Shown here: positions 8,011 to 23,334 of the stretch, piece by piece
Numbering within the stretch: the stretch's first letter is position 1
Layout of the letters: every line of letters starts with the position of its first letter
Assembly (NCBI GenBank): GCA_934661735.1
Contig: CAKUJN010000028.1
Location: 1 to 23,390 of the forward strand
Direction: 5' to 3'
Length of the DNA stretch: 23,390 nt
Source of the DNA: an uncultured Oscillospiraceae bacterium
Lineage (GTDB): Bacteria > Bacillota > Clostridia > Oscillospirales > Oscillospiraceae
Translations under genes and position numbers: made by a program
Notes under the pieces: model-generated
Seen by the model: only the letters and a program-made list of their open reading frames with translations
The model's database searches: none
What the model was told of the DNA's origin: nothing

Positions 8011-8024
8011 GCGATTTCCTCCTG

Positions 8025-9683
8025 TTACCACGACATCGAGTCGTCGAATTCCACCAGCGACGGGTCCAGCGGCTCCTCCTGCATGACGGTGGTCATATAG
8101 TCGCTGATGATGCGCCGGATTTCCATTCTGGAAACCGTGCGCTTGTCCGGCAGCGCGTGCGGGACCCAGATTGCGTGAATGCCGCGCGCACGGAACTCAT
8201 CCTCGAACATGCCGTGAATGCCCTGCATGCCCTTGCATTGCAGCTGGTCGTACATGATGACCATGTCGCAGTGGAAGCGCTCCATATACTCCCACAGCTG
8301 GAAAATGTGCTTATAGCCGCCGACTGCCATCGCGCGCATGGGCGCGTGCTCGTTGAATGTAGCCAGATCCTCCAGCGCGTGCTCATAGGTATCCGTGCGC
8401 AGCATCTGGTCAAACATCAGCGAGTCCATATTCATGACCGTGTTGATGCCCCAGCAGTTGTACGCCCATGTGCACCAGTGCGAATAGTACAGCGGCGCGC
8501 ACGACCACGCGATGGTGCGGTGGCGCGTATTGGGGAACGTGACGATCTGCTCACGCACGCATCTGTCCATGATCCGGCGCACCTTTCTGTCCGTCTCATG
8601 CCAGATGTCGCGGTCGCCGTCCTGCGAATAATAGATGCGGTACAGCGCCTGCGCCACGCCGTTGACGGGATAATACGGCGTATTGGCCGCCACATCCCAC
8701 TTCTCATGCTCAAACTCGGTCAGCTGATTATAGCGCTCGGCGTACTTGACATACTGCTCCCAGCTGAACGGCACGCCCATTTCCTTTTCCACAAACCGCC
8801 AGCATTCCTCAATCTCTCTGGCGCAGTGCTCCTGCACCAGCGGATCGTCAAACTGCATCGGCTGCGGCATGGCGAACAGCGGCCGGTTCAGGAACCAGTC
8901 CTGAAGCACCGACGTCGCGACCGAGCCGTCGCACGCCTCGTTGGAGGTGATCATGATCGGGCTGAAATCGGGATAGTCGTCCTGCACGAAGATGCCGGAC
9001 TCGGCCTGACACATGGGGCAGGGGTCGGCCGGCAGGCCGATGGACTGCACCGCGTCGATATAGTTCAGAACCGTGTCGGAATTGACGTGGCAGGTGACGA
9101 AGTACGGCACCATTTCCAGCGGCACGTCATCAAACTGATCGCGCCACGGGTAGAAGATGCAGCCGCTGACCGTCTCGTTGTGCGCGATGGTCCTGTGCCA
9201 CAGCTCGTTCTGCTTTCCGCCGTGAAGCTTTGTGTCGCAGGCGAACATCCGCTGGAACTGGCGGATGGTCTCGTTGGTCATGGCGCGGTAGTGCCATGCC
9301 GAGGCCTTCAGCGCCTCGCCGCGCAGGCCCTCCATGCCGCGGTCAAACCAGTGCATGACGGTCAGATACGTCTGTCCCACCCAGCGATAGCGCCACACGC
9401 CCTTGAAAAACGCCAGCGGCTCATCGGATTTCAGAATATCCGTCACCATGTGCGCATAGTTATACAGCCAGATGTTGTTGAAGTAGTAGAACGTATCCTT
9501 TACGCCGCGCCATTCGCGGTGCCTGTACAGGCCGGTCTTGTCCATGTACAGCTCGCCCAGACGGCGTTCGCCGTGGGGCTTGCCGTACCAGAAGTCCTTC
9601 GCGGCCTTGCGGATGCGCTCGCGCGCGGGAAGCGCCGGCGCGGCGCCCTTCTTCACGCCGAACAGCTCCTTCAGCTTTTTCAT
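8025..9683 (-). CDS. 2-hydroxyacyl-CoA dehydratase family protein, larger (beta-type) subunit, cassette A
   Basis: This 552-residue protein belongs by its conserved cysteine blocks to the 2-hydroxyacyl-CoA dehydratase/benzoyl-CoA reductase superfamily. Candidate [4Fe-4S] ligands are Cys222 (GLPADPCPMC), Cys251 (NEACDG) and Cys483 (MYDQLQCKGM). It is longer than the usual 370-430 residues, with an N-terminal extension of roughly 100 or more residues rich in aromatics and His. It overlaps the alpha gene upstream by 4 nt (ATGA), as expected for a heterodimer made in equal amounts. It is a clear paralogue of the protein at 16093-17880; both end in a DPSLV(E/D)F(D/E)D motif. Cys225, next to Cys222, is not shared at that position with the paralogue. 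The substrate is unknown; dehydration or a related ATP-driven reduction is inferred. Confidence 0.85.
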   Translation of the reverse strand: MKKLKELFGVKKGAAPALPARERIRKAAKDFWYGKPHGERRLGELYMDKTGLYRHREWRGVKDTFYYFNNIWLYNYAHMVTDILKSDEPLAFFKGVWRYRWVGQTYLTVMHWFDRGMEGLRGEALKASAWHYRAMTNETIRQFQRMFACDTKLHGGKQNELWHRTIAHNETVSGCIFYPWRDQFDDVPLEMVPYFVTCHVNSDTVLNYIDAVQSIGLPADPCPMCQAESGIFVQDDYPDFSPIMITSNEACDGSVATSVLQDWFLNRPLFAMPQPMQFDDPLVQEHCAREIEECWRFVEKEMGVPFSWEQYVKYAERYNQLTEFEHEKWDVAANTPYYPVNGVAQALYRIYYSQDGDRDIWHETDRKVRRIMDRCVREQIVTFPNTRHRTIAWSCAPLYYSHWCTWAYNCWGINTVMNMDSLMFDQMLRTDTYEHALEDLATFNEHAPMRAMAVGGYKHIFQLWEYMERFHCDMVIMYDQLQCKGMQGIHGMFEDEFRARGIHAIWVPHALPDKRTVSRMEIRRIISDYMTTVMQEEPLDPSLVEFDDSMSW

Positions 9684-10873
9684 ACCGGTACACCCCCCTG
9701 AAGCTTCTTGATCTCAATGCTCTCGACAAACGCCTGGAAGCGCGTGCGGAGCTGTCCGGATGCGCCGTTGACGTATTCCTTTTCAATCGAGCACACCGGC
9801 AGGCCATAGTCGCGCGGCAGCACCAGCGTGTCGATGCAGCGCTCATAGCTCCAGTATTCACAGAACTTCATCTGCTCCAGCACCACGCCGTCGGCGTGAT
9901 ATTCCTTTGCCAGATCGGCGATATACTGCTTGCGGCGGCGCATGACGTGCTGCTCCATAAAGCGCGGGCACATCTCCTCGCGCAGATAGTGGCGCGCCAC
10001 CGCCTCCAGCGCCGACTCTCCGGCGTGGACGACGATCTCCTCGCGCCCCGGCAGGCTTCCATAGCAGTGCCGGTCGGCCACGACCAGCGCGCCGCAGTCC
10101 TCCACCAGCTTTGTGAAGTACGGGTCGTCGTTTTCCGAGCCCGCCATCACAACCTTGCACCGCCACGCGGGCTTTTCATCCGGCTCGCGCGTTTTCAGAT
10201 CCTCCAGAATCTCGCGCAGATCGTCCAGAATCAGATACTTCGGACAGCACAGGCTGACCAGCTGAATCAGCTGGAACTCAAATCCGGTAATCGTCGGCTT
10301 TTCCAGCTTGCGGTATTCGCCGATTTCGCGGATGATGCGGCAGACCTCGTTGTGCTCGTCAATCGCCTGCCGGATGGCCTGCTCGGACACATCCACGCCG
10401 TAATGCTCGTGCAGCTTGTCCAGCACATGCGCCTGAAGCTGCTTTTTATAATGCTGTACGGAGTTTTCCGTCTTTTTGAACGGCACGTCGATGAACTCGC
10501 AGAAGAAATTCGGATTCTGCACGATGTTCATCATCTGCAAATGCTCCTGAAAACGGCAGGTGACGGTGCACGTCTCCGTTGCAAACTGCGCGTCGAGGAA
10601 GTTGAACCCTCCCTCCAGCGCCCGCTCCAGCAGGCACCGGCCGTACAGACAGGTGCGGTTGGTCATGTAATAGGTTGCCATATCCGGCGTACCGCTGCGC
10701 GGCGCGCGCAGGCGGACGGAAAAGCAGCCCGGCAGATCCAGCAGCACCTCGGGCATGTACGAGCAGGTGTAGCCAAGGGCGATTTTTCCGTCCTCCTTAC
10801 CTCTGCGCACCAGCTCGTTGTTCGCCTCCAGCAGAAGCTGCTCGAACCGGATCATGTGTTTCAGATCTCTCAT
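9680..10873 (-). CDS. 2-hydroxyacyl-CoA dehydratase family protein, smaller (alpha-type) subunit, cassette A
   Basis: This 397-residue protein is of typical length for the family. Conserved cysteines are Cys37 (GYTC), Cys50, Cys75 (NRTC), Cys102 (ETC) and Cys338 (EQMKFCEYW); by family pattern Cys75, Cys102 and Cys338 are the likely [4Fe-4S] ligands. The C-terminal signature GQLRTRFQAFVES is diagnostic. By eye about half of its residues match the cassette B alpha subunit, with cysteines 37, 50, 75, 102 and 338 at identical numbers. A CCPK motif (near 230) is also shared and is not one I recognise from classical dehydratases. The ribosome binding site is AGGAAG, 34 nt after the flavodoxin-like gene. 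No activase is in this cassette, so activation probably depends on the one at 17937. Confidence 0.88.
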   Translation of the reverse strand: MRDLKHMIRFEQLLLEANNELVRRGKEDGKIALGYTCSYMPEVLLDLPGCFSVRLRAPRSGTPDMATYYMTNRTCLYGRCLLERALEGGFNFLDAQFATETCTVTCRFQEHLQMMNIVQNPNFFCEFIDVPFKKTENSVQHYKKQLQAHVLDKLHEHYGVDVSEQAIRQAIDEHNEVCRIIREIGEYRKLEKPTITGFEFQLIQLVSLCCPKYLILDDLREILEDLKTREPDEKPAWRCKVVMAGSENDDPYFTKLVEDCGALVVADRHCYGSLPGREEIVVHAGESALEAVARHYLREEMCPRFMEQHVMRRRKQYIADLAKEYHADGVVLEQMKFCEYWSYERCIDTLVLPRDYGLPVCSIEKEYVNGASGQLRTRFQAFVESIEIKKLQGGVPV

Positions 10874-10906
10874 GGATACTTCCTTTCTCTCTTCTCGGAT
10901 CGCTTT

Positions 10907-11422
10907 TTATGCCTCGCGGCGGCTCTGATACCAGCTTGCGACCGGCTGGATATTCTCGCGGCACACGCAGCTGTACGCGCCCTGCGCCATCCTCAGCGTC
11001 GCCTGCTCGCCCTCGGTCAGATCGTCCCGCTTTGCCAGATCGCGGCGCAGCTGCGCGCAGATCAGCTTCATGACGGTCCGGTACGGCACGTTCAGCTTCG
11101 CGGGGTCATAGCCGCCCTGCAAATAGAACAGCTGGTCGGTGCCCAGCACGCGGTTGTCCAGACGGAGCTTTCGCTCCAGCGCCTCGGTCGCGGGGCTCAT
11201 GCCCACGCCGCAGACGCACGGGGCGGTAAAGCGCCTGCGCGCCTCGCGCAGACCCTGGATTTTTCCGGCCATCAGCCAGCCCAGATAGATAATCTCGCGC
11301 CCCGCAGCCAGTCCCGCGCTGTCCTTCAGCGAATAGACCGGCAGGCCGGTCGCCTCGCCCAGCAGCTCGGCATACTGCCTTGTGTGACCGGTTTCGGACG
11401 TATAAACGATTGCGGTAACCAT
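10907..11422 (-). CDS. Flavodoxin-like protein
   Basis: This 171-residue protein begins with a flavodoxin FMN-phosphate loop, IVYTSETGHTRQYA (pattern T/S-x-T-G-x-T), followed by alternating strands and helices. The first about 110 residues fit a flavodoxin fold. The C-terminal part is helical, basic and carries two cysteines (SCVC). Flavodoxins pass single low-potential electrons, so it could feed the activase/dehydratase or accept electrons from the ene-reductase. A GGGAGGGGAG ribosome binding site precedes the ATG. It lies between the ene-reductase and the dehydratase pair on the same strand but is separated from the former by a terminator-like hairpin. Assignment to a flavodoxin-like fold is good; the specific partner is inferred. 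Confidence 0.75.
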   Translation of the reverse strand: MVTAIVYTSETGHTRQYAELLGEATGLPVYSLKDSAGLAAGREIIYLGWLMAGKIQGLREARRRFTAPCVCGVGMSPATEALERKLRLDNRVLGTDQLFYLQGGYDPAKLNVPYRTVMKLICAQLRRDLAKRDDLTEGEQATLRMAQGAYSCVCRENIQPVASWYQSRREA

Positions 11423-11440
11423 ATGCTCCCCTCCCTGAAA

Positions 11441-11457
11441 TTTGAAACGGCTTCAAA
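11441..11457 (-). promoter_or_regulatory. Inverted repeat upstream of the flavodoxin/dehydratase genes
   Basis: TTTGAA-ACGGC-TTCAAA is a perfect 6-5-6 palindrome located 19 nt before the flavodoxin-like ATG and abutting the terminator hairpin. It could be an operator or could compete with the terminator stem for pairing. Nothing in the window identifies a binding protein. Confidence 0.4.
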
Positions 11458-11485
11458 AAAGGTCCGGCATCTGTCGGACCTTTTT
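11456..11485 (-). terminator. Intra-cluster terminator between the ene-reductase and dehydratase genes
   Basis: An 11-bp perfect stem, AAAAAGGTCCG with CGGACCTTTTT, has an 8-nt loop and continues into a U-run on the minus strand. It lies 16 nt after the ene-reductase stop. It should end or attenuate transcription before the flavodoxin and dehydratase genes, which therefore need readthrough or a promoter I cannot see. Confidence 0.75.
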
Positions 11486-11501
11486 GAATCATCGCGGAGA
11501 A

Positions 11502-13769
11502 TCAGATCTCCTTTGCCAGATTATACGCAGCGCGGTTCGCCTCAAGAACGCGTCCGGCGTTGAACGAGTCGCCGATGTTGTACACCTCGGGCGCGACGTT
11601 CGCCTGCTGCGCGGAGAGGAACATGCGGTCGTCCGCGCGGCCGCCCATGGCCAGCACAACCAGATCGCAGTGCAGCTCCTGCACGTACGTCTCGGGGCCG
11701 ATCTTCTTTGCCAGCGGGTTTTCAATGTTCTTCGGCAGGACCGGCGCCCATGTGCAGTAGGGATCGGGCACGCCGGCGGAAATGTTGCGGCTGATGCGGA
11801 CGGTGCCCTCGTCAAATTCGACGACCTTGGCGCAGTTGATCAGCTCGCCGCCGTTCTCCTCAAGATAGTGAATCAGGTGGCCGCGGTTTGCGGTGCATGC
11901 GCCGTCGATGAAATACGGCAGCATTTCCACGACCTTGACCTTGCAGCCCTTTTCATAGCTCAGGAAGTACGCCGTCTCCACGCCGACCGCGCCGCCGCCG
12001 ACCACGACGACCTCCTTCGCCTCGCCCAGCAGCTCGGGCCTGACCAGCAGGTCGGTCGCCTGTACATAGCGCACCTTGTCGATGCCCTTGATGGGCGGCA
12101 CGCCCTCGCGCGTGCCGTTGCAGAACACGACCGCGTCATAGTGCTCGTCCTTCAGCATCTCGTTCGTCACCGCGCAGTCCAGCCGGACGGTGATATTCTT
12201 CTCGTTTTCAATCTGCTTCTTCAGCCACTTGTTGTAGTTGTCCAGATCATATTTGACCATCGGTGCGCCCGCGGGATTCAGCTTGCCGCCCAGAACCGGC
12301 GCCTTTTCCAGAATCTCGACCCTGTGGCCCTTCTGCGCCGCCAGCAGCGCGAAGTTCATGCCCGCGCAGCCGCCGCCGACCACGCCGATGCGCTTGGGCG
12401 TCTCGGTTTTCGGGAACGCCTTGGGATACAGCTCTTCAAAGCCGGTGCGGCCGTTGACGGCGCACTGCGGATGGCCGCCCTCGACGAACTCGTTGACGCA
12501 GCCCTCCTGACAGCCGATGCACGGCCGGATCTCGTCGACCTTGCCGGCGTAGGCCTTGTTGCACCAGTCGGGGTCGGCCAGCACGGGACGGCCCAGCATG
12601 ATCATGTCGGCGCGGCCGTCGCGCAGCGCCTGCTCGGCGATATCGGGATAGCCCAGCTTGCCGACGGCAACGATGGGAACCTCCACGCCCACGTTCGACT
12701 TCACGCCGCGCGCGGCGAAGTATTCCTTCGCAACCTTCGACACATCCAGGAAGCAGCCCGCCGGCATGCCCGCGGGCGGATGCGGCAGCCACCAGTTGTC
12801 ATAGCAGCCCAGATCCACGTCGAACATGTCGACGCCGGCCTTGACCAGATTCTCCATATAATCCAGCGTATCGGCGATGGAGCGGCCGTTCTTGAAGCCC
12901 TTGAGGCTCTTGACCTTGTCCATGCGCTCGCCATAGGTCTCCTCCAGCGCCAGCGACAGGTCGATGCGGTACATGATGGGGTAGTACGGGCCGACCTTTT
13001 TGCGCATCGCCTTGACCAGATCGATGCCGAAGCGCTGCCAGTCGGCATATTTGCCGAGCTTTCTGTGGTTGAAGGCGGGACTGGTCAGCTGGTCGAGCAG
13101 ATAGCCCTCGTGGCCGTGCAGATACACGCCGTCCAGGCCCATCTGCTTGGCGTCCATCGACGCCTGCGCCGCATTGCGGATGATTTTGTCACATTCCAGA
13201 TCCGTCAGCGGACGGCACGGAACGTCGGGCAGATAGAAGTTCGGATTCCACGACGCGGAAACCGGCAGCTGAAGCTTCGTCAGCAGGCACTGCGGATTGC
13301 CCACGCGGCCGAGGCCCGGGGTCAGCTGGATAAAGATGCGCGAGCCGCGCGCGTGCACGCCCTGCGCCAGATCGCGCCAGCCCATGAAATTCGTGCGCGT
13401 GCCGTCGATGCGCGGGAAGTAGGAATAGTTGCCCTTTTCGGTGACGGACGAGTCCACACCGTGGCTGATGGGGATCAGGCCCGTCGTGATCAGGCCGATG
13501 CCGCCCTCTGCGCGCGCAAAGAAATATTGCAGCATCTTGTCGTTGGGACGGCCGGATTCCTCGGCCATCTGGCAGTTGCCCATCGGCGCCATGACCAGAC
13601 GGTTCTTGACGGTCAGGCGGTTGATCTGGATCGGGGAGAACAGCTTCTCATACGGATAAAGCTCCTGCGTCATGCGGCCCGTGCCGCCGGCTCTGTTCTC
13701 GTTCCCCTCTTTCAGGAACCAGTTGCCATAGCTGTCCACCAGCTGTTGGATCAGTTCGTCTTTCTTCAA
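11502..13769 (-). CDS. FMN/FAD/[4Fe-4S] ene-reductase of the 2,4-dienoyl-CoA reductase / enoate reductase family
   Basis: This 755-residue protein has an N-terminal OYE-type TIM barrel (LFSPIQINRLTVKNRLVMAPM, later HGHEGYLLDQL). A cluster motif follows: Cys417, Cys420, Cys424, Cys436 (CIGCQEGC, then 11 residues, Cys). The C-terminus has two Rossmann motifs, VVGGGCAG near 460 and VVVGGGAVG near 585. The family (FadH, BaiCD, enoate reductases such as FldZ) reduces activated C=C bonds with NAD(P)H. Beside dehydratase-like genes that would make an enoyl product, this order is typical of reductive fermentation of hydroxyacids. The start is placed at TTG 13769, preceded by AGAGAGGA; an ATG at 13847 in frame lacks a ribosome binding site. 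Its length is somewhat above the usual 640-680, partly from the N-terminus. Confidence 0.88.
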   Translation of the reverse strand: MKKDELIQQLVDSYGNWFLKEGNENRAGGTGRMTQELYPYEKLFSPIQINRLTVKNRLVMAPMGNCQMAEESGRPNDKMLQYFFARAEGGIGLITTGLIPISHGVDSSVTEKGNYSYFPRIDGTRTNFMGWRDLAQGVHARGSRIFIQLTPGLGRVGNPQCLLTKLQLPVSASWNPNFYLPDVPCRPLTDLECDKIIRNAAQASMDAKQMGLDGVYLHGHEGYLLDQLTSPAFNHRKLGKYADWQRFGIDLVKAMRKKVGPYYPIMYRIDLSLALEETYGERMDKVKSLKGFKNGRSIADTLDYMENLVKAGVDMFDVDLGCYDNWWLPHPPAGMPAGCFLDVSKVAKEYFAARGVKSNVGVEVPIVAVGKLGYPDIAEQALRDGRADMIMLGRPVLADPDWCNKAYAGKVDEIRPCIGCQEGCVNEFVEGGHPQCAVNGRTGFEELYPKAFPKTETPKRIGVVGGGCAGMNFALLAAQKGHRVEILEKAPVLGGKLNPAGAPMVKYDLDNYNKWLKKQIENEKNITVRLDCAVTNEMLKDEHYDAVVFCNGTREGVPPIKGIDKVRYVQATDLLVRPELLGEAKEVVVVGGGAVGVETAYFLSYEKGCKVKVVEMLPYFIDGACTANRGHLIHYLEENGGELINCAKVVEFDEGTVRISRNISAGVPDPYCTWAPVLPKNIENPLAKKIGPETYVQELHCDLVVLAMGGRADDRMFLSAQQANVAPEVYNIGDSFNAGRVLEANRAAYNLAKEI

Positions 13770-13876
13770 TGCTACGTCCTCTCTTTCTTCCTGTTTGACA
13801 GTCGTGCCCCGCATCGCGGCGCGTGATGATCTGTTGTGTATATACATTTTTGTAAAAACAGCCCTTCATCTTTTTC

Positions 13877-13905
13877 ATACTAACACGTTTTTTGTCAACA
13901 TTCAA
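13877..13905 (-). promoter_or_regulatory. Candidate promoter for cassette A
   Basis: Within the AT-rich divergent intergenic region, TTGAAT (13900-13905) and TAGTAT (13877-13882) are spaced 17 nt apart on the minus strand. Each matches four of six consensus bases. A TTGACA overlaps nearby but has no correctly spaced -10. On the plus side no convincing promoter for cassette B was found, although the DNA there is unusually AT-rich. Confidence 0.4.
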
Positions 13906-14043
13906 CTGGAAAAGTCGCAAATTCAACAAAAAGAAACAGAATAGCAGAAAATGCGCTTGTAAAATAGTAACGAATATGATAGCATGATATCGATAACACG
14001 CAACGGATATATATGTATGATAATCCGATATACGGGTGATGAT

Positions 14044-14805
14044 ATGGCACATTCTGCAAAAGTAATCGCGCTGTCCGGCAAGGGCGGCGTCGGCAAAACC
14101 TCCATTTCCGCCGCGGCGGTCCGTCTGCTGTGCAGCCGGCGGCCCGACGCGCGCATTCTTGCCATCGACGCCGACCCTGCGGTCGGCCTTTCCACGGCGC
14201 TGGGCGTCGAGGTGACGGAAACGCTTGACGACATCCGCAAGCGCGTCGCCAGCGACGTGACCGGCAAGCTCCGCGACACACAGGACATTCTCGCCGAGGC
14301 GCGCTTCCGGCTGTTCGAGGCCATGCGCGAGCAGCGCGGCTTCGCGTTCCTTGCCATCGGCCGGCCCGAGGCCGCGGGCTGCTACTGCGCCGTCAACACC
14401 TATCTGCGGCAGGTCATCAGCATGCTGGTGAACGATTTTGACTACGTCGTCATCGACGGCGAGGCCGGCATCGAGCAGATCAACCGCCGCGTCATGGAAA
14501 AGGTCACGCATCTGATCTTCGTCTCCGATCAGAGCAAAAAGGGCCTCGGCGTCGTGCGGACAATCAAAAACGTCGCCGACGAGCTGGTCATGTACGACCG
14601 CGCGGGCCTGATTCTCAACCGCGTCACGCATCCCGAGCGCATCGATTTCACAGAGGCCGAGGGCGTTCCGCTGCTGGCCGCCATCGGCCCCGACGAGGCG
14701 CACGCCGCCGACGATATCGAGGGACTGAGCATTTTTGAGCTTCCGGAGGCTTCGCTTCTGCTGCGCGGCGTGCAGACCGCGCTGGAAAAGCTGGAGCTTC
14801 TTTAA
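14044..14805 (+). CDS. CooC-type MinD/Mrp-family ATPase with CXC metal-binding motif
   Basis: This 253-residue protein has a deviant Walker A loop, GKGGVGKTS at 12-20, DADPAVG for the switch region, and VIDGEAGIEQINRR near 140, which matches the CooC subgroup. A CYC motif falls at Cys113-Cys115 (GCYCAVN). In the CO-dehydrogenase nickel-insertion ATPase CooC1 a CXC pair at about 112 and 114 binds metal at the dimer interface (from memory), so both motif and position agree. It is probably a dimeric ATPase that delivers metal or otherwise matures a metalloenzyme. No CO dehydrogenase is present in the window. The start at 14044 is chosen for GGGTGAT about 5 nt upstream; in-frame ATGs at 14017 and 13984 are weaker. 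It leads cassette B, 91 nt before the alpha gene. Confidence 0.85.
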   Translation: MAHSAKVIALSGKGGVGKTSISAAAVRLLCSRRPDARILAIDADPAVGLSTALGVEVTETLDDIRKRVASDVTGKLRDTQDILAEARFRLFEAMREQRGFAFLAIGRPEAAGCYCAVNTYLRQVISMLVNDFDYVVIDGEAGIEQINRRVMEKVTHLIFVSDQSKKGLGVVRTIKNVADELVMYDRAGLILNRVTHPERIDFTEAEGVPLLAAIGPDEAHAADDIEGLSIFELPEASLLLRGVQTALEKLELL

Positions 14806-14896
14806 GCCGCCGCAGGGCAATCTGGAGGAAAAGAAAAAACAGACACCGCTGCGCACCGCGCACCGCTGTCGGGAAAGAAAAAGAGGTGTACACAAT

Positions 14897-16096
14897 TTGA
14901 AGGATCTCAAGCATCTGATCTACTTTGAGGACCTGCTGGAGAACGCCGACAATGAGCTGGTACAACAGGCAAAGGACGAGGGAAAGCTGGCAATCGGCTA
15001 TACCTGCTTCCACATCCCCGAGGTACTGCTCAACGTCGACAACTGCTTCTCCGTCCGTCTGCGCGCCCCGCGCACCGGCTCCATCGACATCGCGACCTAC
15101 TACATGTCCAACTATACCTGTGAGTTCGCCCGCGCGCTGACCGAGCGCGGCATCGAGGGCGGCTACAACTTCCTGGACGGACTGGCCGGCGTGGACGCGT
15201 GCTCGATGATGAACCGCTTCTACGAGCATTTCGAGCTGCTCAAGATGAACGAAAAGCCGAATTTCTTCGTCACGCACACCGACATGCCCTACAAGGTCGA
15301 GGATTACTCCGTGCGCCAGTATGTCAAGCAGATGCGCATCCGCCTGCTCGACGTGATGGAAAAGAGCTACGGCGTGGACACCTCCGACGCGGCCATCCGC
15401 GACGCGGTGGCGCGCCACAACGAGGTCTGCCGCATTCTGACCGAAATCGGCCAGCTGCGCAAGCTGGACAATCCGCCGCTGACGGGCTATGAATACCATA
15501 TTCTCAATCTGGTCTCCTACTGCTGCCCGAAGCATCTGATTCTGCCGTACCTGCGCGAGACGCTGGAGGAGCTGAAAACGCGCCAGCCCGACCCGAAGCC
15601 GTGGTATCGCGCGCGCGTTGCCATCGTCGGCTCCGAGATCGACGATCCCAGCCTGACGAAGCTGATCGAGGACTCCGGCGCGTTCGTCGTCTCCGACCGC
15701 TACTGCTTCGGCTCCACGCCCGGCCGCGAGGTCATCGAGCTGACCGACGACGAGGACGCGCTGACGCAGATCTGCCGCCACTACATGCGCGTTTCCGAGT
15801 GCGCGCGCTACATCTCCGACGACAAGGTTCAGCAGCGCCGCGACACCGCCGACCGCCTCGCGCGCGAATTCCGCGCCGACGGCATCATCTACGAGCAGAT
15901 GAAGTTCTGCGACTTCTGGGGCTTCGAGCGCGCGCTGGTCAGCCACATCATGAAAGAGGAAAAGGGCTGGCCCGTCCTGTCGATCGACCGGCCGTACAAC
16001 GCCCGCTCCTCCGGCCAGCTCCGCACGCGCTTCCAGGCGTTCGTCGAGTCGCTTGAGATCAAGCGCATCCAAAAGGGCGAGGAGGTACACGCATGA
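14897..16096 (+). CDS. 2-hydroxyacyl-CoA dehydratase family protein, smaller (alpha-type) subunit, cassette B
   Basis: This 399-residue protein is a paralogue of the cassette A alpha subunit. Cys37, Cys50, Cys75, Cys102 and Cys338 sit at exactly the same residue numbers; Cys75, Cys102 and Cys338 (EQMKFCDFW) are the expected [4Fe-4S] ligands. The motif GQLRTRFQAFVES is retained. The start is TTG at 14897, with AAGAGGTG 8 nt upstream, aligning with the start of the paralogue (MKDLKHLIYFE against MRDLKHMIRFE); longer forms would run into the CooC-like gene. It overlaps the beta gene by 4 nt (ATGA). It likely forms a heterodimer with the next product and is activated by the ATPase encoded after it. 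The substrate is unknown. Confidence 0.88.
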   Translation: MKDLKHLIYFEDLLENADNELVQQAKDEGKLAIGYTCFHIPEVLLNVDNCFSVRLRAPRTGSIDIATYYMSNYTCEFARALTERGIEGGYNFLDGLAGVDACSMMNRFYEHFELLKMNEKPNFFVTHTDMPYKVEDYSVRQYVKQMRIRLLDVMEKSYGVDTSDAAIRDAVARHNEVCRILTEIGQLRKLDNPPLTGYEYHILNLVSYCCPKHLILPYLRETLEELKTRQPDPKPWYRARVAIVGSEIDDPSLTKLIEDSGAFVVSDRYCFGSTPGREVIELTDDEDALTQICRHYMRVSECARYISDDKVQQRRDTADRLAREFRADGIIYEQMKFCDFWGFERALVSHIMKEEKGWPVLSIDRPYNARSSGQLRTRFQAFVESLEIKRIQKGEEVHA

Positions 16097-17880
16097 GCAG
16101 AAAGCAGAAATTCCCCAACCCGAAATTCTGGCGTTTCAAAGACAACATCAACTGGAAGGCACAGGGTGAAAACCTGAAAGCCGTCTGTGGCATCTTTGCC
16201 GACATGGCAAAGGAGACCGACTGGAAGGCGTTCGGCAGAAAGCAGCTGGAAAACGTCCGGCAGACCGGCAAACGCCTCGCCTCCGAGGCCGCGCTGCTCA
16301 AGGGCATGACCTCCGCCGAAATTCTGGACGTGGCGCTCAACGGCGAAAAGCAGCTCGGCAAGCTCTACCGCGCCGACTCCATGGCCACCGTCCGCCGCGA
16401 ATGGCGCGGCGTGGGCGATACGGCGTATGATTTCTACGAGTGGCTGCGCATGTGGGGCATGCTGCTGGCGACATTCTCAAAGGACCTCGTTCCGGCGCTC
16501 AACAGCGCGCTGTACTACCGCTGGGTCATCTCCTATTTCTGCTGCCACTCCTTCATGGACAAAAATACGCTCGGCCAGCGCGGCTCCGCGCTCCGCATGA
16601 GCCACGCGCTGATTTACGATATCTTCCGCTACGTCGCGGAAAACATGGTGTTCCTCGCCAAGTGCGACCGCCGCAACGGCAACTGCGAGGGCCTGAACAA
16701 AAAGGTCGTCCTGTTCGACGAAATGACCATGGGCCAGATCATGGCGGGCTTCCCCGACCTGCTGGGCATTCCGTACCAGCTGCTGCCCGTGTTCCTCGTC
16801 TCCGAAATCGACCAGCTGACGTGCGTGCCGTATATCGACGCCGTCGAATCCTTCGGCCTGCCGGCCGACACCTGCCCCGTCCCGTCGTCCGAGTGCGGCG
16901 CGCTGGTGCTGGACGCGCTGCCCCATATGGGCACCTGCTTCATCTCCAGCTCCATGCCCTGCGACGGCTCGGTCATGGCCTCGTCCTATATGAGCCGCCG
17001 CTTCCCCGACCTGCCCGTGTTCCACCTGACGTTCCCCGTCCGGTACGAATACGAGGAGACCGTCTCCGACGCGGCCGAGGACGTCAAGGCGTGCATCCGC
17101 TTCATCGAGGAGCAGACCGGCGCCAAGTGGAGCTGGGACGCCTACTTCACCGCCATGAAGCGCTTCAACGTCGAAACGTCGTACGAGCTTCAGAAGTGGG
17201 AGGTCAACCGCACGAAGAATCCGCAGCTCATCGGCCCGTGCTATGAGCTGTTCCGCAAATGGAACTATGAGATGGACGGCGGCAGCGACCCGCGCGTCAT
17301 GAAAACCTGCAAAAAGGTCAACCGCCTGATGCTCAAGGCGTATGAGCGCCGCGAGGAGCCGTGGCGCGGCAAGATGAAATACCGCGGCATCGTCTGGTCG
17401 TGTCCGGCGCACTATTACGCCAACTTCTCCAACTGGCTGGCAAACTGCTGGGGCGTGGACATCCTTGTCGAGATGGAAAGCCTCAACTTCACCCGTCCGC
17501 TTGAGACCGAGGACCCCGAAAAGGCGCTTCAGGATCTCGCCCGTCTGTACGAGCGCATGGTCATGCGCCGTCACACAAACGGCGGCTATCAGAACGTCGT
17601 CGACGAGCTGTGGAAGCAGTGCGAGCTGTGGGATATCGACATCATCATCATGTACCAGAACGTCGCGTGCAAGAACATGTCCACGCTTCAGGGCATTCTG
17701 GACGAGCAGGCGCGCGAAAAGGGCTATCACATGATCTGGATCGAGCACGATCTGATGGACCCGCGCACCGTCTCCCGCAAGACCATGCGCAGCAAGGTCA
17801 ACGAGTACATGCGCACCGTCATGCGCGCCGAGCCGGTCGACCCGTCGCTCGTCGACTTCGAGGACGATATCACGTGGTAA
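16093..17880 (+). CDS. 2-hydroxyacyl-CoA dehydratase family protein, larger (beta-type) subunit, cassette B
   Basis: This 595-residue protein has candidate cluster ligands Cys261 (GLPADTCPVP), Cys290 (MPCDGS) and Cys526 (NVACKNM). The 29-residue gap between the first two equals that in the cassette A paralogue. The N-terminus is about 40 residues longer than in A and starts with a basic, aromatic stretch (MSRKQKFPNPKFWRFKDN). Shared blocks include REWRGV near 100, YIDAV(Q/E)S, IVWSCPAHYY and a C-terminal DPSLVDFED. Both beta subunits are much longer than classical HgdB/HadC proteins, so they may form their own subfamily. A 56-nt AT-richer gap separates it from the activase gene. A dehydratase function is inferred from fold; a different ATP-driven reduction is possible. 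Confidence 0.86.
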   Translation: MSRKQKFPNPKFWRFKDNINWKAQGENLKAVCGIFADMAKETDWKAFGRKQLENVRQTGKRLASEAALLKGMTSAEILDVALNGEKQLGKLYRADSMATVRREWRGVGDTAYDFYEWLRMWGMLLATFSKDLVPALNSALYYRWVISYFCCHSFMDKNTLGQRGSALRMSHALIYDIFRYVAENMVFLAKCDRRNGNCEGLNKKVVLFDEMTMGQIMAGFPDLLGIPYQLLPVFLVSEIDQLTCVPYIDAVESFGLPADTCPVPSSECGALVLDALPHMGTCFISSSMPCDGSVMASSYMSRRFPDLPVFHLTFPVRYEYEETVSDAAEDVKACIRFIEEQTGAKWSWDAYFTAMKRFNVETSYELQKWEVNRTKNPQLIGPCYELFRKWNYEMDGGSDPRVMKTCKKVNRLMLKAYERREEPWRGKMKYRGIVWSCPAHYYANFSNWLANCWGVDILVEMESLNFTRPLETEDPEKALQDLARLYERMVMRRHTNGGYQNVVDELWKQCELWDIDIIIMYQNVACKNMSTLQGILDEQAREKGYHMIWIEHDLMDPRTVSRKTMRSKVNEYMRTVMRAEPVDPSLVDFEDDITW

Positions 17881-17936
17881 GCGCCCGTGATCTGCGTCAA
17901 AACTGAATTGAGAGAAATAAATTGGAGGAAATAGAA

Positions 17937-18734
17937 ATGAAATACTTTGGTGGATGCGACGTAGGCTCTACTTATACAAAAGCGGTCATTCTGGATGAGA
18001 ACGGCAAAATGGTTGCCGACACCACCATCCGCAGCAAGATCAACGCCGAAATTTCGGCCCGTCAGGCCATGGACGAGGTCGTGGCAAAGGTTGAGGGTCT
18101 GAACAGCCCGCAGGATCTGGCCTACCTCATCGGCACCGGCTACGGCCGCAACAAGGTTCCGTTCGCCGACGAAAACATCTCCGAAATCTCCTGCCACGCC
18201 ATGGGCGTGCACATCACCAACCCGTCCGTCAAGGCGATCATCGACATCGGCGGCCAGGACGTCAAGGGCATCTCCATTGACACCGACGGCACCGTCAAAA
18301 ACTTCGCCATGAACGACAAATGCGCCGCCGGCACGGGCCGCTTCTATGAGGCCATGGCGCGCAGCTTCGAAATGACCCTGCCCGAGTTCTCCAAGCTGTC
18401 CCTGACGGCAAAGAACGTCATTCCCATCACCGCGCAGTGCACCGTTTTCGCCGAGTCCGAGGTCATCACGCTTGTCGGCGAGGGCAAGCCCATGGACGAA
18501 ATCGCCGCCGGCATCCAGATGGCGGTTGCCAAGCGCTGCTTCGTCATGGCCAAGAAGGCCGGCGCGACCGATTCGATCACGCTGACCGGCGGCTGCGCCA
18601 AGAACGACGGCCTGAAGGCCGCCATCGAACGCGTGCTGAAGCTCAAGGTCGTTGAGCTGTCCACCGACCCGCAGCTGATGGGCGCGCTGGGCGCGGCGGA
18701 ATACGCCCGCCAGAAGGGACTTGCCAGAGCCTGA
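17937..18734 (+). CDS. 2-hydroxyacyl-CoA dehydratase activase (HgdC-type ATPase)
   Basis: This 265-residue protein has the ASKHA fold landmarks of the activator: GCDVGSTYTKAVI at the N-terminus, GTGYGRNKVPFAD, IDIGGQDVKGI and LTGGCAKNDGL. Cys129 (NDKCAAGTGRF) and Cys168 (AQCTVFAESEV) correspond to the two cysteines per subunit that hold one [4Fe-4S] cluster between the two halves of the homodimer (Cys127 and Cys166 in Acidaminococcus HgdC, from memory). It hydrolyses ATP to push one low-potential electron onto the dehydratase. The start at 17937 has GGAGG 8 nt upstream; five extra residues are possible. It is the only activase in the window and probably serves both alpha/beta pairs. Confidence 0.95.
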   Translation: MKYFGGCDVGSTYTKAVILDENGKMVADTTIRSKINAEISARQAMDEVVAKVEGLNSPQDLAYLIGTGYGRNKVPFADENISEISCHAMGVHITNPSVKAIIDIGGQDVKGISIDTDGTVKNFAMNDKCAAGTGRFYEAMARSFEMTLPEFSKLSLTAKNVIPITAQCTVFAESEVITLVGEGKPMDEIAAGIQMAVAKRCFVMAKKAGATDSITLTGGCAKNDGLKAAIERVLKLKVVELSTDPQLMGALGAAEYARQKGLARA

Positions 18735-18761
18735 TTTCGGCCGGAAAGGAGCGTTTAGCCG

Positions 18762-18917
18762 ATGAAATTTCTCAAATCTCTGTTGAAAATCGTCTCCATC
18801 GTCACCGGCATTCTGTTTGCGGTGTATTTCTGGAACCTTGATCAGAAGCTGATGGCGTGGGCCTACACCATGGTCAACCGCATGTTTGACCGCAAGGACG
18901 TGGATGTGAAGTTCTGA
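18762..18917 (+). CDS. 51-residue single-pass membrane protein, cassette B
   Basis: The protein reads MKFLKSLLKIVSIVTGILF, continues hydrophobic to about residue 23, then has YFWNLDQKLMAWAYTMV and a charged tail. An AAAGGAG ribosome binding site lies about 10 nt upstream. Its stop overlaps the next start (TGATG), so it is translationally coupled to the ACS-like gene and is very probably real despite its size. It mirrors the 75-residue protein at 7783-8010 in layout (TM helix, LD-x-KL motif, short basic tail). I recognise no named family. A membrane-tethering or accessory role for the dehydratase-like complex is a guess from the repeated association. Confidence 0.78.
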   Translation: MKFLKSLLKIVSIVTGILFAVYFWNLDQKLMAWAYTMVNRMFDRKDVDVKF

Positions 18918-19627
18918 TGAAGCTCTATGACAACATCATAAAGCAGACGCTGGACGCGCTGGGCACGCCGGATCGGGTCTATGCCTATGATCCGGCCTGC
19001 GCGTGGCGCGACCGCGGCGAAAGCGAGCTGGTCATGCAGCGCGACGCCGCGCTGGAGCTTGGCGGCTCCGGCCGCAAATCGGTCAATTTCACCTGCGTCA
19101 CCTCCACGCCTGAGCTGGTGACAAACGACGAAATCTGGCTGTACGGGAGCGAAATTGCACAGCTGCGCGGCGATGTGCCGTTTGCGCGCATCGCGCTTCT
19201 GGAGGTTGACGACCTCGGCGGCGACGAGGAGGCGTACAACGCCATCCGCCGGATGGAATTTGTCCGCTATCATGTGTTCCCCGAGGGCTATATGGTCCGC
19301 GTCTCCTCCGAAAGCAATCAGGAGCAGGTGCGCCTGAGCAAAGCCGCCGTCAAGGCCGGCATCAGCTTCCGCTCGGTCGGCGCGGCGTATATCCGCAAAT
19401 ACCGCGAGCTGGCCGGCGTGCGCCATGTGCGCCTGATCTTCTGCACCGGCCATCCGGCCATGGACGCGTTCATCGACGCCGCGAAGAAAACGGACGCGAT
19501 CACGCAGACGCTGACGCATATTCTCGACGGTCTGCCCACCGACTGCGGCCACTGTACGCTCAAGCCCGTCTGCGACGAGGTCGAGGGCATGCGCGAGCTG
19601 CACCTCGGGAAAAACCGGAAAAAATAA
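18917..19627 (+). CDS. Stand-alone protein resembling the central domain of acetyl-CoA synthase (ACS/CODH beta)
   Basis: Across most of this 236-residue protein I see a colinear resemblance to the middle domain of acetyl-CoA synthase as I remember it from Moorella AcsB. ALELGG matches YVEMGG; LYGSEI matches VIGPDI; VPFARIALLEVDDLG matches LPLGILVDIYG; and RLSKAAVKAGISFRSVG (about 139-155) matches RVSKDAVAKGFRFKNYG. ACS continues into its A-cluster domain; here the protein ends shortly after a cysteine knuckle, Cys210-x2-Cys213-x5-Cys219 (DCGHCTLKPVCDE). The later cysteine pair (CGC) and the rest of the catalytic domain are absent, so it cannot be a complete ACS. It may bind a cluster or dock to a ferredoxin or corrinoid partner. 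The CooC-like ATPase in the same operon makes a metal-related role plausible. Confidence 0.72.
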   Translation: MKLYDNIIKQTLDALGTPDRVYAYDPACAWRDRGESELVMQRDAALELGGSGRKSVNFTCVTSTPELVTNDEIWLYGSEIAQLRGDVPFARIALLEVDDLGGDEEAYNAIRRMEFVRYHVFPEGYMVRVSSESNQEQVRLSKAAVKAGISFRSVGAAYIRKYRELAGVRHVRLIFCTGHPAMDAFIDAAKKTDAITQTLTHILDGLPTDCGHCTLKPVCDEVEGMRELHLGKNRKK

Positions 19628-19631: not shown

Positions 19632-19667
19632 AAAAACGTCCTCCGGCGACGCCGGAGGACGTTTTTT
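19632..19667 (+). terminator. Strong terminator of cassette B
   Basis: A 16-bp perfect stem with loop GAC (arms end in CGTCCTCCGGC and GCCGGAGGACG) starts 4 nt after the stop codon and runs into TTTTTT. The A-tract on the other side makes it potentially bidirectional, so it may also stop the convergent TetR transcript. Confidence 0.93.
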
Positions 19668-19769: not shown

Positions 19770-20393
19770 CTATTCGCGAATCAGCGCCGTGAAAACGGCG
19801 TCGCGGTCAAAGCTGCCGTCGACAAAGCCGTCGATTTCCTTGATGGCCTTGCAGACGCTGACGCTGAAGCCGGTCAGAATCGCGCCAAGCTCCTGATCGG
19901 AATACGGACACGCGCCGGTCACAATCAGCGTGGCCAGACTGTGCACCACCAGCCACAGATCGCGGAAGTATCGGTCGGCGGTCAGCGCGTCCATGTGATA
20001 GATGCGCATGAGCGACTCGCGCACCTGCGCCTGCGAATGCTCCATCGCGGCCATCGCGCCGCTTTTCCCGTCCGGCCCCTGCGTCAGAAACAGCAGGCGG
20101 TAGAGCTCCGGCTCCCGCTTTGCAAAGCGCAGATACTGGATCCCGAAGCCGTGGAACGGCACCGGCATCCGCAGGCCCTCGGCGGCGTATTCGTCATAGA
20201 CGGCCTGCGCAGCCAGACGCACCTCGGCGTGCACCTCGTCCATGGATTTGAAATAGGTAAAGATCGGGCGCGTGGAGACGCCAAGCTCCGCGGCGATATC
20301 CCGTGTCGTCACGCCCTGCGCGCCCTTTGCGCGCGCCACATTCAGCGCGGCGTTGACAATTTCCTCTTTTGTGAACTTGACCTTCGGCGGCAT
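19770..20393 (-). CDS. TetR-family transcriptional regulator
   Basis: This 207-residue protein has an N-terminal TetR helix-turn-helix (FTKEEIVNAALNVARAKG, then TTRDIAAELGVSTRPIFTYFKS at about 26-47) and a helical C-terminal ligand domain resembling TetR_C proteins such as WHG-domain regulators. It probably represses its own gene through the palindrome at its promoter and may control the divergent hydrolase operon. The start at 20393 (MPPKVKF) is chosen because AAAGGGTG lies about 8 nt upstream; longer in-frame starts would run back through the promoter. It is convergent with cassette B, from which it is separated by the strong terminator and about 100 bp of AT-rich DNA. The inducer is unknown. 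Confidence 0.9.
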   Translation of the reverse strand: MPPKVKFTKEEIVNAALNVARAKGAQGVTTRDIAAELGVSTRPIFTYFKSMDEVHAEVRLAAQAVYDEYAAEGLRMPVPFHGFGIQYLRFAKREPELYRLLFLTQGPDGKSGAMAAMEHSQAQVRESLMRIYHMDALTADRYFRDLWLVVHSLATLIVTGACPYSDQELGAILTGFSVSVCKAIKEIDGFVDGSFDRDAVFTALIRE

Positions 20394-20426
20394 GCGGCCC
20401 ACCCTTTCTGTGTCCGTTATTTTTCG

Positions 20427-20441
20427 GATGTGTTGCACATC
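20427..20441. promoter_or_regulatory. Palindromic operator at the tetR transcription start
   Basis: GATGTG-TTG-CACATC is a perfect 6-3-6 palindrome located immediately downstream of the -10 of the TetR gene promoter, where RNA synthesis should begin. Position and symmetry fit autorepression. No second copy was found near the hydrolase promoter. Confidence 0.6.
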
Positions 20442-20448
20442 AATTGTA

Positions 20449-20477
20449 ATTTTACGAGATTCCATCGTTTCTGTCAA
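20449..20477 (-). promoter_or_regulatory. Promoter of the TetR gene
   Basis: Consensus TTGACA (20472-20477) and TAAAAT (20449-20454) are separated by exactly 17 nt on the minus strand, giving a leader of about 50 nt to the chosen start. It is divergent from the promoter at 20513-20541, with the two -35 boxes 35 bp apart. Confidence 0.8.
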
Positions 20478-20512
20478 GCCCCGCGGGGGATATTTCCGCG
20501 CACGCCTGCGGG

Positions 20513-20541
20513 TTGACAGGAAAAGGAAGGCAGCTTATAAT
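20513..20541 (+). promoter_or_regulatory. Perfect-consensus promoter of the hydrolase operon
   Basis: TTGACA (20513-20518), a 17-nt spacer and TATAAT (20536-20541) match the sigma-70/sigma-A consensus at every position. It should be strong unless repressed. The leader to the hydrolase ATG is about 250 nt and contains two hairpins and a small open frame. Confidence 0.88.
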
Positions 20542-20697: not shown

Positions 20698-20799
20698 ATG
20701 AGAGATTCTGAATCTGAAGCGGCTCGTTCCGGACGGCGGAACGCGCGGCGGCTCCGGCCCGTGGGACCGATCCATTGCGGAAGGGAGATGCCGGAATGA
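20698..20799 (+). CDS. Possible 33-residue leader peptide coupled to the hydrolase gene
   Basis: An ATG at 20698 has GGGAGGG 8 nt upstream and opens a 33-codon frame whose TGA overlaps the hydrolase ATG (ATGA). The peptide begins MRDSESEAARSG and is Arg-rich with no helix or signal. The start signal and exact overlap favour translation, perhaps to couple hydrolase synthesis. In GC-rich DNA such frames also arise by chance, and the sequence looks unconstrained. Confidence 0.4.
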   Translation: MRDSESEAARSGRRNARRLRPVGPIHCGREMPE

Positions 20800-21701
20800 G
20801 CGTATGTGCCTCGCTGCTGCGCACGGTATACCGGCTTTCCGGCGCGAAAAAGGCGTTTGCCCTGCCGGAGGATGCACTTCTGGAGGCCATCCGGAAGGCG
20901 AACCGAGGCCGCGGCTTCTTTATGCCGACGGACCACAAGGCGCACTATGAAAAGAAAATGATCAACGGTTTTCCGTGTCTGGTCGTCCGCGCGGCCGAAA
21001 CGCCCGCGAAGCGTGCGATTCTGTTCTTCTTCGGCGGCGGGATGGTCATCGGACCGGACAGAGGCGACGCAGCTGTACTGCGCAGACTCTGCTACGGAAC
21101 GGATTCCGACGTGTGGTTCCCGATCTATCCGCTCTGCACGGAGCACTGCATCACGGAGAGCTATGACATGGCGTTTGAATGCTACCGGCAGATGATCGGG
21201 ATGTACGGCGGCGGAAACGTGAGCACCTGCGGCTTTTCCTCCGGCGCGGCGCTGGCGCTGGGCATGGCGGCGCACAACCGCGCACTGGGCGCGCCGCTCC
21301 CGCAGCCGAGGCACATCATTGCCGTCGCGCCGGGCGAAGTGCCGTGGAACGACGAGGAGCTGGCGCGGATGCAGGCGCTCAACCCGACGGACGTCGCCAT
21401 CGACTACGCGTTCATGGCCAAAGGCGAAAAGCTGATGCGCCACGGGCGGGACGATGTGCCGGATTACACGCTTGCGCCGTCGCTGGGCGACTATACGGGC
21501 GTGGGCGATATCCACTTCTATTACAGCACGGACGAGGTGCTCTACGGCGCGCTGCCGGAATTCCGAGCCGCGTGTGAGCGGGCGAATGTGCCGTACACCG
21601 TGACCGCACGCGCCGGAATGACGCACTGCTACTGCATGCTGCCGTATTATAAGGAGGCGAAGGAGGACTTCGCCGGAATTGTGGAACAATTGAAGCAATA
21701 G
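20796..21701 (+). CDS. Alpha/beta hydrolase (HSL/acetyl-esterase-like)
   Basis: This 301-residue protein has the nucleophile elbow GFSSG with Ser148, a probable acid Asp246 (YSTDEVLYG) and His277 (GMTHCY), in the order and spacing of the hormone-sensitive-lipase/acetyl-esterase group. The usual HGGG oxyanion motif is FFGGGMVIG, lacking the histidine. No signal peptide is evident, so it is probably cytoplasmic. It would hydrolyse a small ester or related bond; the substrate is unknown. The start at 20796 is set by AAGGGAG about 9 nt upstream. It is the first long gene of an operon with a membrane protein (12-nt gap) and an ATC-hydrolase family protein, divergent from the TetR gene. Confidence 0.83.
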   Translation: MSVCASLLRTVYRLSGAKKAFALPEDALLEAIRKANRGRGFFMPTDHKAHYEKKMINGFPCLVVRAAETPAKRAILFFFGGGMVIGPDRGDAAVLRRLCYGTDSDVWFPIYPLCTEHCITESYDMAFECYRQMIGMYGGGNVSTCGFSSGAALALGMAAHNRALGAPLPQPRHIIAVAPGEVPWNDEELARMQALNPTDVAIDYAFMAKGEKLMRHGRDDVPDYTLAPSLGDYTGVGDIHFYYSTDEVLYGALPEFRAACERANVPYTVTARAGMTHCYCMLPYYKEAKEDFAGIVEQLKQ

Positions 21702-22221: not shown

Positions 22222-22830
22222 ATGGATATGAAAGGAAGCTATCTTGCCAGAGATTTTCGGGCGACTGCCGCGCAGCAGTTTCCGGCGCAGACCGAGGCGC
22301 TGAACCGTGCGTTTGACGCGCGGCTGGCGGCGCTCCGCCGCGAAAACGCGGACGCGTCCAGAGAGAAGCTGTGGCATCTGGAGGGGCAGATTCTGCCGGG
22401 AATTGCGGCGTATGAGACGCTCCAGACGGTCATGCCGAAGGATGCCGCACTGCAAACCGTCCACGGCTATGTAGAGGCGCGCGCGTGGCGGCTGAAAGGG
22501 ATTTTCGTCCGGCTGATGCGCATTCCGCGGCTCTACCGGCGTGTGCCTGACATCTTTGCCAGACAGACGCCGAAGCTGTTCGGCGAGGCGGCGGGCTTTG
22601 CGGCGACGGAAATCCAGACAACAGGCGGCGTGTGGCGCATCGACATGACGCGCTGTCCTTATCACGACGCATGCGTGCGGTACGGCTGTCCGGAGCTGTG
22701 CCCATCGTTCTGCGACAGCGACGATATTACATACGACGGCCTGCATCCGCAGCTTTTCTGGCGCAGGACGAAAACGCTGGGCCGCGGCGGAGACTGCTGT
22801 GACTTCTGTTTGAAAATCCGCGGGCGGTAA
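22222..22830 (+). CDS. L-2-amino-thiazoline-4-carboxylate hydrolase (ATC hydrolase) family protein
   Basis: This 202-residue protein has a helical N-terminal half and a Cys-rich C-terminal core: TRCPYHDACVRYGCPELCPSF, then CDSDD near 165 and GGDCCDFCLK at the end. This fits the ATC_hydrolase-like family. The founding Pseudomonas enzyme opens the thiazoline ring of ATC to S-carbamoyl-cysteine on the way to cysteine. Most Firmicute members are uncharacterised and substrate identity should not be assumed. The start at 22222 has GAGGGGAAAGG upstream; an ATG two codons later is possible. It is the last gene of the hydrolase operon, and no clear terminator follows before the repeat begins. Confidence 0.8.
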   Translation: MDMKGSYLARDFRATAAQQFPAQTEALNRAFDARLAALRRENADASREKLWHLEGQILPGIAAYETLQTVMPKDAALQTVHGYVEARAWRLKGIFVRLMRIPRLYRRVPDIFARQTPKLFGEAAGFAATEIQTTGGVWRIDMTRCPYHDACVRYGCPELCPSFCDSDDITYDGLHPQLFWRRTKTLGRGGDCCDFCLKIRGR

Positions 22831-22865
22831 ATTGCACAGCGCGCAGTTGGTTCTTTCCGGCCGGC

Positions 22866-23334
22866 GCCGGAGGTGCCGCCGAATGCGGCGAAGCCGCAAC
22901 CATTGCTTCGCAGCCCCACTTTTTCTGCCTTGCCAGAAAAAGTGGGCAAAAAGAGGCGCTGGAGGCGGATCGGATTGTACCGCAGTGCCACAGAAGAACC
23001 CCGTAGAAGGACATTGCGGCCAACACACGGGAATCTCTCTACAAAACTGGACTACAGCGCCGCCTGCGTGGAGACAACGCTCCCATCGGGAGCAGTTGCC
23101 GCGCAGGAAGATGGTAAAACACGCTGCCGTGGAATGCAGAACGCATCTACGTGTTCGCCGGTGGTGCAGAATCGTAACCGGCTGAGTATTCCGGAAATGA
23201 GTAGTACCGAAGCTGATGTCGTTTGCCAGTAACTGCGTGTAGTACATTTATCCGCACCGAAAACCATCGGCATGGTTGCAAATTTGCGCCCGAAGAGGGC
23301 GTAAAAAAATTCTCGCGCGTCAGCGCGCAATATA
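22866..23334. repeat. Structured repeat, copy 2
   Basis: The block is colinear with 6944-7454 in the same orientation, beginning with a GC-rich arm, then the CCCACTTTTTCTG hairpin (22915-22946), GGCAAAAAGAGGCGCTGGA, the bulged stem at 23063-23107, GAGTATTCCGGAAATGAG and the end GCGCGTCAGCGCGCAATAT. The match stops at that AATAT. The inverted right arm seen in copy 1 is not found in the remaining 56 bases. No gene is credible inside. Relative to copy 1 it lacks about 54 bp and one short hairpin. Confidence 0.8.

Follow-up and report, generated by a model that had tools for sequence, protein, structure and literature searches.

A run of six plus-strand genes on contig CAKUJN010000028.1, from an uncultured Oscillospiraceae bacterium, encodes what, judged by sequence, is an ATP-driven double-cubane reductase of a conserved variant type, with a miniature acetyl-CoA synthase (ACS) and a small subunit predicted to sit in the membrane. 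In the window, by which we mean the whole stretch of 23,390 nucleotides that was analysed, the run spans 14044-19627 and consists, in this order, of a CooC-type ATPase, two unlike reductase subunits (α and β), an ATP-dependent activase, a small protein with a single transmembrane segment (γ), and a stand-alone ACS domain (ACSd). The first-pass annotation of this DNA had described an operon of a CooC-type ATPase, α, β, an activase and a 236-residue ACS domain, and its account of these five long genes holds; it overlooked γ, and it overlooked that CooC and ACSd are usually single-copy genes where α is often multi-copy. Two ancient metal chemistries, those of the ATP-driven radical reductases and of the ACS A-cluster, are joined here in bacteria that mostly lack carbon monoxide dehydrogenase (CODH; 18 of 20 scanned). 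The identities of the components, the conservation of their ligands, their order and their co-occurrence are established by the sequence comparisons presented below. The gene set comes from gut and rumen bacteria and may represent an unusual, perhaps nickel-dependent way to drive difficult reductions. Among the literature matches listed, no title or abstract opening described it.

The stand-alone ACS domain

ACSd (18917-19627, 236 residues) is homologous to the A2 domain of ACS. A PDB search with the single sequence alone is weak (E 0.09), yet the profile match to ACS is significant, and the resemblance that the first-pass annotation had pointed out proved to be real homology; a chance match was ruled out. 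Full-length ACS it is not, with 21 bits against a cut-off of 800 for equivalog NF040764 and 19 against 356 for TIGR00316. The C-terminal motif C210-x2-C213-x5-C219, noted earlier, can be extended by x9-H229. The resulting C-x2-C-x5-C-x9-H is present in 79 of 80 loci (locus counts out of 80 refer throughout to the best 80 of 227 ACSd loci), the eightieth, L047, being cut by a contig end, and in 24/24 aligned ACSd rows, three of which are 30-37% identical. Full ACS from Clostridia has C-x2-C-x8-C-x9-C in 11/11 cases and CGC further on, also in 11/11; length led to the exclusion from this comparison of one ACS locus out of twelve and of a single row of alignment A1. In ACS these cysteines are the ligands of the A-cluster, the second of them bridging to the proximal nickel.

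In a global hidden Markov model (HMM) alignment, C210, C213 and C219 fall opposite the first three A-cluster cysteines. The tail of ACSd is read as an altered A-cluster-like motif with a histidine at the spacing of the fourth cysteine; the protein ends 17 residues after C219, with x5 in place of x8 and with no CGC distal nickel site. Compared with ACS/CdhC of the Wood-Ljungdahl pathway, it shares the A2-domain fold and a cysteine motif resembling the start of the A-cluster motif, but lacks A1 and the rest of A3 and stands as 236 residues alone. For Lachnospiraceae without a canonical ACS, HCP-type (PF03063) genes have been proposed, and the passages of that paper covered here do not mention a stand-alone ACS domain (PMC7000372).

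The reductase subunits and their activase

The α gene (14894-16096, a GTG start being assumed) overlaps β by 4 nt. Its best PDB match is BzdN (8s02, E 3e-23), and the double-cubane cluster protein (DCCP; 6eno) matches at E 2e-18. The six cysteines expected to ligate an [8Fe-9S] double cubane (C38, C76, C103, C271, C303 and C339; ligand numbers here and for β from passages of PMC11971306) are conserved across 103 α-type places, with one gap, at C38. α nevertheless lies far under the equivalog cut-offs of its relatives, scoring 80 of 454 bits for BzdN, 146 of 350 for the DCCP family NF040772 and 73 of 700 for the 2-hydroxyacyl-CoA dehydratase NF052456 (HadC). The earlier label of a "dehydratase" operon therefore finds no support in that form, α carrying the six cysteines of the benzoyl-CoA reductase/DCCP type and falling far short of the dehydratase family cut-off.

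β (16093-17880) resembles BzdO, the catalytic subunit, and has an N-terminal extension of roughly 125-160 residues relative to it. Its three cluster cysteines (C261, C290 and C526) predict a [4Fe-4S] cluster that, like the one in BzdO, leaves a site open; in BzdO the fourth ligand is water or hydroxyl according to passages of PMC11971306. A model of β matches the fold of BzdO, with which a true dehydratase ties. Near the place of the acid/base residue His131 of BzdO lies C-D-G-S, G292 or S293 (serine in 99/100) coming closest to it in an alignment that is ambiguous by one residue. The activase (17922-18734, residues numbered from TTG 17922, with ATG 17937 as a possible start) belongs to the BadF/BcrA family. 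It passes TIGR00241 (210 bits, cut-off 125), falls below the BzdQ equivalog (168 of 380 bits), and has C134 and C173, which we take to be the places of the bridging cluster, in 59/59 sequences.

Like the class I benzoyl-CoA reductases BzdNOPQ and MbdONPQ, the set combines a double-cubane subunit, a [4Fe-4S] catalytic subunit and a BadF-type ATPase, but one activase gene replaces P and Q, the N terminus of β is longer, C-D-G-S stands near the His131 place, and γ, CooC and ACSd are added. With DCCP and DCCP-R it shares the six-cysteine double cubane and an ATP-dependent activase, whereas DCCP is described in passages of PMC11971306 as a homodimer and the present system has two unlike subunits, γ and metal-type accessory genes. 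The 2-hydroxyacyl-CoA dehydratases (HgdAB-C, HadBC-I) share the fold of β and the activase family, but here α has the double-cubane ligand set, and to our knowledge no accessory CooC or ACSd accompanies those enzymes.

An overlooked predicted membrane protein

The gap between activase and ACSd, from which the first-pass annotation listed no gene, is filled by a conserved open reading frame for a 51-residue single-transmembrane protein, γ (18762-18917), whose TGA stop overlaps the ATG of ACSd by 1 nt. An RNA element in this gap was rejected; a search of the window against Rfam found nothing. A γ-type small frame occurs in 67/67 loci whose activase lies no more than 700 nt upstream of ACSd and in 69/80 loci overall, the other 11 having no activase upstream; these counts come from a looser search pattern, two narrower ones each giving 54/80. 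A γ profile found 117 matches among 19,809 short frames. Among the 102 β-type ends that leave 450 nt or more for it, γ was placed after 100 by this profile, directly after β in 39 cases and within 1.6 kb (after the activase) in 61; none was found by this search after the remaining two (L110 and L116), and 17 of the 117 matches were not assigned to any β end. Because these very loci supplied the sequences for the profile, this count is no independent test. The lone αβ pairs of L106, L107, L111, L112, L113, L117 and L118 each have their own γ, and the neighbours of such lone αβγ pairs look mutually unrelated by eye. γ has no Pfam match; it is a near-constant partner, short enough for gene callers to overlook.

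Conservation of the gene set

The CooC protein (14044-14805) is a P-loop ATPase of the MinD type, with CooC1 (3kje, E 1e-11) as its best PDB match. The CXC pair to which attention had been drawn, C113 and C115, is kept in 57/57 aligned relatives. Judged by order and co-occurrence, CooC, α, β, activase and ACSd form a unit; CooC and the ACS domain do co-occur with this α subfamily, a condition on which the first-pass annotation had made its proposal depend. The five long genes stand in order in 46/80 loci, and in 43/50 of those with at least 6.5 kb upstream; in the other seven, CooC directly precedes ACSd (L043, L058, L059, L065, L068 and L072) or the order is CooC-activase-ACSd (L026). CooC lies directly before ACSd in 10/80 loci, with gaps of -14 to 35 nt. 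The 14-nt overlap is found in L069, a locus with an Old Yellow Enzyme (OYE)-type gene and aconitase X-like genes (by eye) and without αβ alongside. Upstream of the five-gene set in L104, at 979-3159, are an aldehyde ferredoxin oxidoreductase-like gene and a MoaD-like gene (by eye).

Across a sample of Clostridia, ACSd (E<=1e-10) was found in 4/243 genomes and α (E<=1e-60) in the same 4; in a second sample, which shares some genomes with the first, ACSd was found in 3/197 and α in the same 3. Three of these genomes, G191, G207 and G406, were not known beforehand. All 17 genomes drawn from ACSd loci have α; counting fragments, the α matches per genome range from 1 to 11. CooC and ACSd are usually single-copy and α is often multi-copy: close CooC copies (58% identity or more) number one in 14/17 genomes and two in 3/17, a count that sets aside 35% relatives found in three genomes, and CdhC-domain matches number one in 18/20 genomes and none in G018 and G020. 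That many genomes have several αβγ sets suggests that rumen and gut harbour reductions still unexplored.

The 33-35% CooC relatives of L128, L129 and L130 (genomes G031, G026 and G029) adjoin genes resembling those for corrinoid Fe-S protein subunits and a corrinoid activator (by eye). The activase was found in 11/17 genomes taken from ACSd loci. In L066, L067 and L070, and at contig ends in G022, contigs end at one or both ends within near-identical activase copies, which suggests that several activase copies are kept alike, and because of these contig ends its absence elsewhere is perhaps assembly loss.

Signs of nickel

The claim of greatest interest here is that of nickel. In Rhodospirillum rubrum, CooC, CooT and CooJ serve the nickel loading of CODH, and CooT binds nickel via Cys2, according to passages of PMC6006190. 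The present system likewise has a CooC with CXC and, in relatives, a CooT with Cys2 and a His-rich partner, but 18/20 scanned ACSd genomes lack CODH. A CooT-type gene lies in 34/80 loci, and in 29/44 of those whose flanks span 9 kb or more before and 1.5 kb or more after; it stands in one of three positions, namely downstream on either the same or the opposite strand, or upstream beyond the region of a second αβ pair (α2β2). The five CooT examples scanned all score 56-65 bits, above the Pfam cut-off of 27. Of the 34 CooT-bearing loci, 21 also have a gene recognised as His-rich; none of the five His-rich proteins scanned passes a Pfam cut-off, and it is their His-richness and position alone that liken them to CooJ. 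CODH was not found in 18 of the 20 ACSd genomes scanned, is whole in G017 and is split in G026. Seven of the 20 have CooT at the locus (L007, L021, L035, L036, L037, L060 and L071), and six of these are without CODH, the exception being G017, which holds L071. A CODH or full ACS elsewhere in the genome was considered as the client of CooC; the CODH count and the CdhC-domain matches given above speak against it in most of these genomes.

The second close CooC copies, in G003, G028 and G032, are 58-61% identical and adjoin CooT (L125, 5842-7146; L126, 5090-6332; L127, 5752-7083). CODH was undetected in all three genomes. A His-rich gene was recognised beside the pair in L125 and L127, and a nearby protein in L126 and L127 presumably resembles a subunit of ferredoxin-NADP reductase. 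The dedicated metallochaperone that had been proposed becomes likelier because CooT occurs in 34/80 loci with a His-rich gene in 21, in genomes mostly without CODH, while the nickel itself and the joint function are still putative. Passages of PMC6006190 count 111 CooT homologues and 85 CooT-containing proteomes with CODH, so that part of the CooT proteins lack a CODH client. A comparable reductase operon with dedicated nickel chaperones is isr (isoprene reductase) of Acetobacterium wieringae, which differs in having HypA/HypB chaperones and an unrelated FAD oxidoreductase (passages of PMC10134865).

Proposed mechanism and alternatives

We give roughly even chances to a membrane-linked, ATP-driven reductase system served by a common, CooC-matured Fe-S (probably Ni-Fe-S) mini-ACS protein; the nickel, the membrane attachment, the electron flow and the substrate are what we infer. 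By analogy with the benzoyl-CoA reductase and 2-hydroxyacyl-CoA dehydratase families, the activase would spend ATP to push single electrons into α, the double cubane of α would store them and hand them to β, and β would reduce a hard-to-reduce substrate, with γ holding αβ at the membrane. CooC, together with CooT and the His-rich protein in relatives, would load a metal, most likely nickel, onto ACSd, which would be a common partner, usually one per genome, for all the αβγ sets of that genome. ACSd may then act as a low-potential electron relay or as a cluster or metal donor; we lean weakly to a redox partner, because the tightest neighbour of CooC in split operons is ACSd and not αβ.

A bolder form of this proposal is put forward tentatively: the genes may define a new Ni-Fe-S enzyme class, in which membrane-linked ATP-driven αβγ double-cubane reductases depend on a shared mini-ACS whose Ni-[4Fe-4S] site is filled by CooC, CooT and His-rich chaperones, enabling gut and rumen Clostridia to reduce various hard substrates as electron sinks. 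If the mini-ACS does carry nickel, it would add a family of nickel enzymes and provide a place for the nickel chaperones that occur where CODH is lacking. The proposal would also account for some of the CooC and CooT genes of genomes without CODH.

Several observations weigh against the mini-ACS proposal. The local HMM alignment ends before the cysteine motif, the forced global alignment leaves His229 unpaired with the fourth A-cluster cysteine, a pairing for which equal spacing alone speaks, and ACSd is without the CGC metal site of ACS. The AlphaFold2 model of ACSd is unreliable at 204-236 and the VIA chain ranges disagree, so that any structural cysteine-to-cysteine mapping onto ACS would be uncertain. 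In 46/80 loci, many of them short-flanked, no CooT was found; it was likewise not found in the window, L001, L104, L105 or L131. It is not specific to the ACSd system, because 28/243 Clostridia carry it, three of the four ACSd genomes among them, and in the distant genome G191, which does carry a full ACS, it adjoins that ACS; G207 has ACSd without CooT. Passages of PMC6006190 question the need for CooC in every nickel insertion. As regards co-occurrence, four of the seven genomes (G002, G004, G013 and G015) were known beforehand from ACSd loci, while G191, G207 and G406 have a single α match each, that of G207 reading through one TGA. The activase was not found in 6/17 genomes.

It is possible, though on the whole unlikely, that nickel or another metal instead enters αβ itself, with CooC and ACSd as a maturation pair in which ACSd is a carrier or scaffold to the open β site or the α double cubane and no redox partner. 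One CooC and one ACSd in most genomes against one to eleven α matches would suit a shared maturation service, and the three-cysteine site of β, with its water or hydroxyl fourth ligand in BzdO, would offer a destination. The double cubane alone, however, seems to have no need of a dedicated maturase, because E. coli produced BzdNO when given a plasmid that is described as carrying the BzdNO genes (passages of PMC11971306), and CooC adjoins ACSd even where αβ lies elsewhere. We regard as rather improbable a nickel-free system; in it, ACSd, with an ordinary [4Fe-4S] cluster, would relay electrons from cellular reductants to the activase or link the two as an adaptor, and CooC would be its ATP-driven conformational helper. 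The missing CGC part, the histidine at the fourth-cysteine spacing and the many loci without CooT, the window included, are in keeping with it; the CooT genes that the other 34 loci carry in one of three positions, joined in 21 by a His-rich gene and found in genomes mostly without CODH, argue for nickel, as does the role of CooC, CooT and CooJ in R. rubrum. An ordinary 2-hydroxyacyl-CoA dehydratase or benzoyl-CoA reductase with CooC, ACSd and γ as hitch-hikers is very improbable: α, β and activase do belong to that superfamily and the fold match of β is tied, but the co-occurrence and gene order, γ at nearly every β end, and the scores of α far under the BzdN, DCCP and HadC cut-offs speak against it.

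Neighbouring genes

Divergent from the CooC operon, the minus strand at 7783-13847 carries a second αβγ set with two putative flavoproteins. The first gene of this set encodes an OYE/BaiCD-like flavoenzyme (11502-13847; 322 bits for NF041087, under the cut-off of 825), copies of which, 75-81% identical, are also divergent to CooC in L001, L004 and L005. It is followed by a flavodoxin-like protein (10907-11422; a weak Pfam match, E 0.002, under cut-off), a second double-cubane-type subunit, α2 (9680-10873; six ligand cysteines kept in 31/31), β2 (8025-9683; Pfam HGD-D, 88 bits against 28) and, directly after β2, the 75-residue single-transmembrane γ2 (7783-8010). Many Butyrivibrio loci also have an α2β2 pair upstream of CooC. 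The divergent intergenic region (13848-14043) holds one weak promoter-like site at 13993-14021.

Directly after ACSd and before a convergent TetR-type regulator gene (19770-20541) is a terminator-like hairpin of 16 pairs (19632-19666), near-palindromic and scored on the minus strand. The case for a terminator is one of strength and place only, because the region holds 8 such sites against 7.3 in shuffles. At the start of the TetR gene are sigma-70-like sites, one matching at 12 of 12 positions (20513-20541, plus strand) and one at 11 of 12 (20477-20449, minus strand). Further on, Pfam identifies an alpha/beta hydrolase (20775-21701) and an L-2-amino-thiazoline-4-carboxylic acid hydrolase family protein (22222-22830). 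The window also seems to hold a repeated element, because the minus-strand open reading frames at 4712-7033 and 22662-22991 begin with nearly the same peptide, R-Y-N-P-I-R-x-Q-R-L-F-L-P-T-F-S-G-K.

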